A DNA stretch of 32,135 bases, taken from assembly GCA_021776675.1 (NCBI GenBank), contig JAJFFM010000048.1:1-32135 (forward strand). Direction: 5' to 3'. Each line of letters starts with the position of its first letter. The stretch's first letter is position 1. Under the pieces are notes generated by a model. The model saw only the letters and a list, made by a program, of their open reading frames with translations. It ran no database searches and was not told the origin of the DNA. Positions 1-19,820 of the stretch are shown here, piece by piece. The stretch comes from Robiginitomaculum sp. GTDB taxonomy: Bacteria > Pseudomonadota > Alphaproteobacteria > Caulobacterales > Maricaulaceae. The position numbers and the translations under genes were made by a program.

Positions 1-1753
1 GAAGATGCAAAATGGCATGTTCAACACCGCCGATATATTGGTCAACAGGCAGCCACTGGCTGGCAATTTTATTATCGAACGGTTTATCATCAGTGTTTTT
101 CCCTTTTTTGGCACCAGCAAATCGCGCGAAATACCAAGAGCTATCAATGAATGTATCCAGCGTATCCGTCTCGCGGGTCGCAGGCTTGCCGCAGCTCGGA
201 CAATCCTCATGTTTCCACGTAGCATGACGGTCAAGTGGATTGCCGGGAATATCAAAGCTGACATCATCCGGCAGCTCAACGGGTAGGTCGGCTACGGGCA
301 CAGGCACGGCACCGCAAGCCTCACAATGAATAATCGGGATAGGACAACCCCAATACCGTTGCCGCGATACACCCCAGTCTCTCAATCTATAAGTGATTTG
401 TTTGGTGCCAGCCTTAAGTTTTTCTAACTTTGTAATCGCCGCAGAAATACCGTCCTCAACACCCATGCCGTCAAGGAAATGAGAATTAAACAATTTACCG
501 GAGCCAACATAAGCTTCATTTTCGACTTGATATGTATCCGGGTTTTCGCCTTCAGGCAGAACAACAACAGGCACAGGCAAACCATATTTTCGGGCGAAAT
601 CTAAATCCCGTTGGTCGTGCGCAGGACAGCCAAATATCGCGCCCGTACCATAACCCATCAAAACAAAATTAGCCGCATAAACGGGTAGGGTGATACCATC
701 ATCAAATGGATGTTTAACCCGCAAGCCCGTATCAACACCGAGCTTTTCAGCTTTTTCCACGGCTTCCGCGGTGCTGCCCATTAGAGTGCAGGCTTTAGCT
801 AATTCTTCGAGCGCAGCATTATCTGGCGTTAATGATTTAATGAGTGGATGGTCATAGGCTAGGGCTACAAAGCTGGCACCGAACAAAGTGTCGGGCCTTG
901 TCGTGTAAACTTCTATGTTTTTTATATCGCTCACGGCAATTGAGCTTTGCTCAACGCCTCCGCGAGGGCGCGCCATTGGGCGCGACGGGCGGTCGCCCTT
1001 GCCTCGCTGAAACTCGGTATCCGGTGATGCGTCCACCACGGCGAAACTAAACTGCGCACCCTCAGAGCGGCCAATCCAGTTTTTTTGCATGGTGCGGACT
1101 TTGTCTGGCCACTGGTCAAGCGTGTCTAGTGCCTTGTCCAAATCTTCGGCGTAATTGGTGATTTTGAAGAACCATTGGTTTAACTCTTTGGTTTCGACCT
1201 CTGCGCCAGAGCGCCAGCCTTTACCGTCTATCACTTGCTCATTGGCCAGAACGGTCATATCCACCGGATCCCAATTGACCTTGGCTGTCTTGCGGTAAAC
1301 CAAACCGTTTTCCATGAATTTCAGGAAAATAGCTTGCTGTTGTTTGTAATAGGCCACATCGCACGTAGCAAATTCGCGGCTCCAATCCAGTGCAAACCCG
1401 AGCCTTTGTAGGGGTGCTTTCATGGCGTCGATATTGCCGTAAGTCCATTCTTTGGGGTGGCCTCCCCCAGAATCCATATTGGCCATGGCGGCGTTTTCGG
1501 CCGGCATTCCAAATGCGTCCCAACCCATCGGGTGCAGCACTTCAAAACCGCAAGCCCGTTTGTAGCGCGCAATCACATCACCCATAGCGTAATTGCGCAC
1601 ATGACCCATATGGATGCGGCCAGACGGGTAAGGGAACATTTCTAGGGCATAATATTTAGGCTTAGAGGAATTGTCATCAGCTTCAAACGAACACGCCGCA
1701 TCCCATGCGGCCTGCCACCTGGGCTCTACTTCCGCCGCATTATATCTGGACAT
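1..1753 (-). CDS. leuS: Leucyl-tRNA synthetase (N-terminal part; gene runs off the left edge)
   Basis: Direct minus-strand translation from ATG at 1753: [18 protein letters not shown]...[25 protein letters not shown]...NWIGRSEG...[13 protein letters not shown]. The HMGH and TTRPDT motifs are typical of bacterial LeuRS. Frame is open to position 1. Confidence 0.97.
920..1017 (-). repeat. Palindromic repeat element, copy 1, inserted in frame within leuS
   Basis: Minus strand reads CCGAGTTTCAGCGAGGCAAGGGCG...CCCTCGCGGAGGCGTTGAGCAAAGCTCAATTGCCGTGAGCGATATAAAA. Shares two exact 15-mers and hairpin architecture with 18503-18613. Confidence 0.8.
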
Positions 1754-2398: not shown

Positions 2399-2480
2399 GT
2401 GCCTGAAGGTCTGCGTGGAGGTCTACCTGAAGGTTTGTCTGAGCGTAAGTGAGTTTATATGAGCGTAAGTGAGCCTATAT
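2399..2480. repeat. Compound short tandem repeat: about four 12-nt units then two 20-nt units
   Basis: gtgcctgaaggt/ctgcgtggaggt/ctacctgaaggt/ttgtctgagcgt, then gagcgtaagtgagtttatat/gagcgtaagtgagcctatat (18/20 identical). Confidence 0.8.
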
Positions 2481-18473: not shown

Positions 18474-18502
18474 ATGACAGTAAATAAAGCGAACAAGATG
18501 TG

Positions 18503-18613
18503 CCGAGCTAAGCGAGGCAAGGGCGCCAAAAAAATGTAGAATGGGCCGTCGGCACTTATGTGCCGCGCTCGCGCAGACGTGCGTTCTTACGCATTGTCGT
18601 GAGCGATATAAAA
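18503..18613 (+). repeat. Palindromic repeat element, copy 2, in the sucA-sucB intergenic region
   Basis: CCGAGCTAAGCGAGGCAAGGGCG...CGGCACTTATGTGCCGCGCTCGCGCAGACGTGCGTTCTTACGCATTGTCGTGAGCGATATAAAA; shares both ends and hairpin architecture with the leuS copy. Confidence 0.8.
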
Positions 18614-18626
18614 TAGGAGAAGAGTT

Positions 18627-19820
18627 ATGATTGATATTAAAGTGCCAAATGTCGGCGAAAGTGTTGCCGAAGTGACTATCGCCGTCTGGATGAAACAGGT
18701 TGGGGATACGGTCAAAAAAGACGAACCGATTGTCGAGCTTGAAACTGATAAAGCGGCACAAGAATTAGTTGCGCCAGAAGACGGTGTGCTTTCGGAAATA
18801 TTGGTACCTGAAGGTGAAAACGCAGAAATCGGTGTGATTATTGCGCGTCTAAAACCTGGTAAGGTGGAAGCAGGCACGGAGCCTGTTGCCGATGTGCCTG
18901 CCGCAAAGACGGAAGTTCCAAAAACGGCAACAGCTAAAGACCCAATGCCGTCCGCTAAACGCGTCATGGCTGAAAAAGGTCTGGATGCTGGCACGATTGC
19001 AGGTAGTGGTAAGGATGGCCGGATTACCAAAGGTGATGCCCTCAAAGCAGAGAAACCCGCGAAAGCTGCCCCTGTACCCGCTCCATCTGCACAAAGAGAT
19101 ACAGGACCCAGAAAAACAGAAGAAAGAGAAGAACGTGTGCGCATGTCGCGTCTGCGCCAAACCATTGCCCGCCGTTTGAAAGATGCGCAGAACACTGCCG
19201 CAATGCTGACCACTTATAATGAAGTGGATATGACCGAGGTCATGGAAATGCGCAAAAAATACAAGCAGGTGTTTATCGACAAACACGGCGTCAAATTAGG
19301 TTTTATGAGCTTCTTTATCAAAGCGTGTGTGACAGCCTTAAAAGACGTGCCGAGCGTAAACGCCGAAATCGACGGTACAGATATCATCTATAAAAATTTC
19401 TATGACATGTCCGTTGCTGTTGGTACCGATAAAGGTCTCGTGGTTCCTGTTCTACGGGATGCGGATCAGCTTTCTATGGCAGGTATCGAAAAAGGTTTGG
19501 GCGCACTGGCCAAAAAAGCCCGTGACGGCGATTTGTCTATGGATGATATGAGTGGGGGTACATTTACTCTGTCTAACGGCGGCGTTTATGGTTCGTTGAT
19601 GTCTTCACCAATCTTGAACCCACCGCAATCCGGCATTCTTGGTATGCACAAAATTGAGAAACGCGCCGTGGTTATAAATGATGAAATTGTTATCCGCCCA
19701 ATGATGTATCTAGCACTGTCCTATGATCACCGTATCGTAGACGGAAAAGGCGCGGTTACATTCTTGGTGCGTGTAAAGGAATGCCTAGAAGACCCAGAGC
19801 GGATGTTGCTGGATTTGTAA
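18627..19820 (+). CDS. sucB: 2-oxoglutarate dehydrogenase E2 (dihydrolipoyl succinyltransferase)
   Basis: Lipoyl domain ([18 protein letters not shown]), peripheral-subunit-binding domain, catalytic [23 protein letters not shown]. Confidence 0.97.

Follow-up and report, generated by a model that had tools for sequence, protein, structure and literature searches.

What is the palindromic sequence that occupies the gap between sucA and sucB in the Robiginitomaculum DNA analysed here (the window, 32,135 nucleotides), and what keeps it there? A preliminary description had proposed a dispersed family with maintained base pairing, and the many copies and the covariation reported below bear this out. 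The explanation that we favour, with a probability of roughly 0.6, is that of a mobile palindromic repeat, non-autonomous and about 98 nt long, which is carried in operon mRNAs, in this clade mostly lies against the Shine-Dalgarno (SD) sequence and has its fold kept by selection. The features concerned, all numbered on the window, are:

18500..18613, plus strand: sucA-sucB copy of the repeat (match to the covariance model R1 at 18500-18612, 97.3 bits, E 2.4e-25)
18503..18517, plus strand: 5' hairpin CCGAGC-TAA-GCGAGG, near-invariant, with a possible tandem G.A core
18521..18548, plus strand: hairpin 1, with a long A-rich loop in this copy
18550..18565, plus strand: hairpin 2, CGGCAC-TTAT-GTGCCG, double changes at 4 of 6 pairs
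18576..18598, plus strand: hairpin 3, GAC-G-TGCGT-TCTT-ACGCA-TT-GTC, double changes at 5 of 9 pairs
18599..18613, plus strand: A/U-rich tail GTGAGCGATATAAAA, conserved and predicted to be mostly unpaired
18498..18539, plus strand: short open frame ATG TGC CGA ... TAG running into the element (read from the sequence), probably not a gene
18615..18629, plus strand: AGGAG Shine-Dalgarno and ATG of sucB
921..1020, minus strand: second copy in the window, in frame within leuS, where it adds about 30 residues

The 15-mer GTGAGCGATATAAAA occurs exactly twice in the window, at 18599-18613 (+) and 920-934 (-), each time sense to its host gene (sucB and leuS, respectively), in agreement with the sequence, shared ends and orientation first described for the two copies. 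The 3' end at 18613 was also correctly placed and lies 13 nt before the sucB ATG (about 14 nt had been given), but the unit begins at about 18500 and not at 18503. Alignment of the own-genome copies defines a unit of about 98 nt with four hairpins, comprising GTACCGAGC-nnn-GCGAGGCAAGG, hairpin 1 (GGGC-GACC-GCCC or a longer loop, the long A-rich version of the sucA-sucB copy being found in three further own-genome copies), hairpin 2 (CGGCGC-N4-GCGCCG), a linker, hairpin 3 (GGC-G-TGCGC-N4-GCGCA-CT-GCC) and the tail GTGAGCGATATAAA. Directly before GTACCGAGC, copies at unrelated genes have a 5' extension in common, TTANTAGGATCG (e.g. L136, L138, L174, L177, L133, L027, L034), as if the mobile unit carried a variable 5' module.

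The preliminary description had proposed a genome-wide search with a structure-based model and a comparison of sucA-sucB spacers, and both were informative. In the Robiginitomaculum-like (Alphaproteobacteria) genome that contains the window, an assembly of 2.36 Mb in 239 contigs and 82% complete, blastn with the sucA-sucB copy as query returned other copies at E-values down to 7.5e-27, and R1 detected about 16 strong copies. Nine other genomes of the genus hold 4-17 copies each and four hold none; copies were gathered by model searches, by which weak ones may be missed. The set of 84 copies used below comes from nine genomes of the genus. Five genomes (G000, G002, G003, G004 and G007) have a copy in the sucA-sucB gap, and in nine others of the genus (G001, G005, G006 and G008-G013) the gap is short and empty, a pattern that needs about four gains or losses on a partly unresolved sucB tree. 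The leuS site is likewise filled in G000, G006 and G007, with some 30 additional residues. Nine genomes of the genus have no copy there, and in G002 the position is taken by a longer, unrelated loop. Neither of the outcomes that had been named as contrary to a mobile repeat, a lack of further copies or a spacer conserved with no empty sites, was thus obtained.

Copies are also arranged in tandem and apparently nested (L136, L156, L024, L177). When the 45 nt on each side of the 84 copies were compared with each other, 8 scored 11 or more, compared with 0.87% of mismatched pairs, a significant excess that is clear in a minority of the copies; in most of the 84 a clear flanking repeat is no longer visible. 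Seven of the eight matches begin exactly at the 3' junction. The best direct repeats each span the SD and the ATG; they match over 24/24 nt at pdhC of G006, 20/20 at sufB of G008 and 16/16 at rsmG of G004. At pdhC of G006 the duplicated stretch also contains the end of the upstream gene, so that both genes are intact. Taken together, the dispersed copies, the filled and empty sites, the tandem and nested arrangements, the flanking repeats and the maintained pairing argue for a mobile repeat.

The element also lies in frame, in sense and always in the same frame within leuS (three genomes), ubiD (two), glyS and one short gene, where it reads ...GKGDRPS...VSDIK or nearly so; the identities of ubiD and glyS were assigned by reading. 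This shared frame is forced, since stop codons close both remaining sense frames of the tail, and it does not constitute evidence for a peptide. A role as a short peptide gene, with coding selection on the intergenic copies, was rejected by inspection, given the single-base changes in loop length and the fact that the in-gene frame is the only stop-free frame of the tail. The in-gene copies bear directly on the proposal that the element is not mobile and serves as a cis-regulatory leader of particular operons, either riboswitch-like or a protein-binding RNA. Such a leader would be expected to have a conserved fold, a fixed distance to the start codon and orthologous copies kept across species, all of which are found here, but it would not be expected at many unrelated genes, with clear empty sites, tandem or nested copies and flanking repeats, or in frame within leuS, ubiD and glyS. 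In addition, no Rfam family reaches its gathering threshold over the element in the whole window and six loci. The empty sites and the in-gene copies strongly weaken this proposal, and we consider it improbable.

With respect to the fold, 96% of cells pair in the structure-based alignment of the own-genome copies, double changes occur at 11 pairs, and the alignment has a covariation score of 0.362, compared with 0.152 after shuffling; none of 500 shuffles reached the observed value. Across 104 distinct sequences we counted 340 double-change cells against 90 in shuffles, in an alignment fitted to the model, which favours the proposed structure. Hairpin 3 has the layout first described, with G opposite TT, and the difference between GAC:GTC here and GGC:GCC in leuS is truly compensatory and recurs across the family; the score of an alternative helix, in which the same GGC pairs with an upstream CNCC, came close to that of the base of this hairpin. 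Two other details of the preliminary description did not hold. CGGCAC-TTAT-GTGCCG, said to be missing from leuS, is the family's hairpin 2, among its best-covarying helices, and leuS has CGCGCC-CAAT-GGCGCG at the same place. Covariation gives no support to the outer stem GCGAG/CTCGC, in which GCGAG hardly varies but the proposed partner does; GCGAGG lies opposite CCGAGC in the small 5' hairpin, whose strict motif, with its possible tandem G.A core, is present in 63/84 copies and is so nearly invariant that covariation says little about it.

Same-site copies share 82% identity, compared with 77% for other pairs, and the comparison of copy identities showed no homogenisation within genomes; between the same genomes, 4-fold sites of sucB are 34-63% identical. 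Comparison of 24 orthologous pairs yielded 44 compensatory changes, 25 single changes that preserve pairing and 21 broken pairs, 5 of which come from the coding leuS copies, and a control with slid partners gave 0-1 compensatory changes. The 5' flanks are unrelated between some same-site copies (rpoC and coaX of G002), which may be independent insertions, and for this reason constraint and re-insertion are not fully separated by these counts.

Among the 84 copies, a gene start lies within 70 nt in sense for 68 and in antisense for 9, 8 of the latter having both. For sense copies near an ATG, 43/59 end 11-15 nt before it, abutting the SD, and 51/59 are at operon junctions with a same-strand gene ending no more than 150 nt upstream, mostly 10-50 nt. 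The downstream genes include, by Pfam, rpoC, gltB, sufB, lptE, rsmG, ilvC, tgt, an acyltransferase, a YbjQ gene and a radical SAM gene and, named by reading, sucB, pdhC, leuA, coaX, rplS and rsmD. Other distances are found at ilvC (30-52 nt), tgt (18-24 nt) and one transporter gene (0 and 42 nt). At rsmD (L024, L169, L186) the repeat extends into the start codon (ATATAAATG), and some of these copies have GGGAG or GGAG in place of the tail's GTGAG, as though the tail had been turned into a Shine-Dalgarno. This docking, the flanking duplications with SD and ATG and the wide, patchy distribution in the class are points that the preliminary description did not contain.

Docking could also arise if the repeat were purely selfish and neutral, with SD sites being those tolerated in compact operons and the fold inherited from folded mobile sources. 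The short gaps between these genes offer few harmless sites, insertion also occurs away from SD sites, as the in-gene copies demonstrate, and same-site copies with different 5' flanks may have inserted independently, all of which such a repeat would accommodate. Longer non-operonic gaps should tolerate insertions too, yet a minority of the clade's copies are there, and the orthologous copies keep their pairing by compensation at the divergence seen in sucB 4-fold sites. We regard neutrality as a possible but doubtful account.

In the favoured explanation, a mobile repeat under selection for its fold, trans-acting machinery would insert the unit at or near translation-initiation regions; alternatively, insertion would be wider and selection would leave the copies in initiation regions. 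In the clearest cases, duplication of a flank with the SD and start codon leaves the upstream gene its end and the downstream gene a complete initiation region. It is conceivable, though on the unlikely side, that the machinery itself recognises initiation regions, sets the 3' end against the SD in core operons and duplicates the SD and start codon. If true, targeted insertion would let the element spread within essential operons, from one intercistronic gap to another, with both neighbouring genes left intact. What is observed is that the family has entered core operon junctions (rpoC, sucB, pdhC, sufB, gltB and others) with an almost constant spacing to the start codon, and that its fold is maintained by compensatory change. 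The hairpin cluster and the A/U-rich tail before the SD might modestly alter cleavage, decay or ribosome loading between cistrons, and selection would keep the fold either for such an effect or because mobility is confined to well-folded copies. The element may plausibly influence sucA/sucB expression, most likely, by analogy with ERIC, through cleavage or decay between the cistrons (PMC2229807). Folding leaves the tail mostly open by prediction, and the predicted unpaired probability of the SD is 0.59 with the element and 0.54 without it (p = 0.22), no significant change, on which ground a role in hiding or freeing the SD was rejected. The filled and empty sites provide a natural series for measuring the effect of an intercistronic hairpin on operon stoichiometry.

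As to what moves the unit, two known mobilisers were considered, namely a RAYT (Y1 tyrosine transposase) acting on a REP and a reverse transcriptase of the same genome acting on a SINE-like element. The hairpin units resemble REPs, and a precise 3' junction with duplications of variable length resembles target-primed reverse transcription as generally known. Y1_Tnp is nevertheless absent from the copy-rich complete genomes G002 and G006, the second of which has the perfect 24-nt duplication, and RVT_1 is absent from G000, G003 and G006 but present in the element-free G012 and G013. Both mobilisers were rejected, their genes being absent from copy-rich genomes; neither explains the mobility, and an element of either type is very improbable here.

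By its dispersed copies, filled and empty sites and hairpins kept by covariation, the element is one of the mobile palindromic repeats in the broad sense, which include REP, RPE and ERIC, and works like them. The RIME elements of Rhizobium, a family cited in PMC2873474, are intergenic palindromic repeats of about 100 bp in the same class. Against pSymB of S. meliloti, the replicon searched for this kinship, R1 gave only weak and unconvincing matches (best 22.4 bits, E 0.002). The closest in behaviour are the Rickettsia palindromic elements (RPE; reviewed in PMC2229807 and PMC3733652), compared here by their published description, which are also palindromic, about 100-150 bp long, alphaproteobacterial, and both intergenic and in frame within conserved protein genes; unlike them, the present element is docked at the start codons of operon genes. 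RPE are credited with terminal inverted repeats (PMC2229807), a feature also of MITEs; none were found here, the complementarity between the ends being shorter than in shuffled copies, and the target site duplication expected of a MITE is seen as the above significant excess, clear in a minority of copies. ERIC, which alters mRNA stability in an orientation-dependent manner, and YPAL, with target duplications of 3-26 bp that resemble the 16-24 nt repeats here, are likewise small folded mobile repeats in operon mRNAs, but they are enterobacterial (an unrelated group), have longer units and have no fixed start-codon distance reported (PMC2229807).

GTAG and CGTC REPs are also GC-rich hairpin repeats, and the latter are common in Alphaproteobacteria without a dedicated transposase (PMC3733652). 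The present unit differs in having four hairpins over 98 nt, and its insertion pattern is unusual, since REPs were surveyed near the end of the upstream gene at a varying distance to the downstream gene (PMC3733652), whereas here the distance from the downstream start is nearly fixed. CGTC occurs in 71/84 copies, but is followed by the two A/T that start the stem of a CGTC REP in only 2; the Y1 transposase that accompanies GTAG REPs is the one lacking in G002 and G006. The CIR repeats of Caulobacter and Brucella resemble the element as intergenic repeats of about 110 bp with hairpin arms in the same class and carry GANTC methylation sites (PMC2229807), which are present in 0/84 copies. In the open papers, docking against the ribosome-binding site of core operon genes is undescribed for the known bacterial repeats compared.

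A pattern scan of the species-genome collection returned 30 stretches. Robiginitomaculum MAGs accounted for 24 of them and a single alphaproteobacterial MAG from the same genus group for 4; the remaining 2 lay elsewhere and are probably due to chance. At E 1e-5, R1 matched 17/289 other sampled Alphaproteobacteria, with up to 14 copies each, and in a second, wider draw of genomes all matches listed were again within Alphaproteobacteria; blastn of the consensus against plasmids found nothing. Related repeats are thus patchy across the class and generally without SD docking, and since those of G009, G022 and the distant sampled Alphaproteobacteria are generally undocked, docking is a property of this clade.

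Some of the related repeats lie beside RNA genes. In three loci from large genomes of another family of the class (L295, L296 and L297, at about 1500-1600 of each), R1 matches are located in the 23S-5S rRNA spacer, antisense to the rRNA, and in G022 (L195, L201, L206, L209) related repeats start 0-14 nt past the 3' ends of tRNA genes, also antisense. These cases suggest that the 3' tail often adjoins the boundary of a functional RNA. In other Alphaproteobacteria (L250, L251, L286, L287, L288) the repeat tail is directly followed by a long separate inverted repeat, e.g. CTAGATCTGTTTCGAT...ATCGAAACAGATCTAG, which is absent from the window's clade. Within the window, a short tandem of CTCACTTACGCTCA spaced by TATAAA is found at 2430-2475 (-), before a lipoprotein-like gene at 1786-2268.
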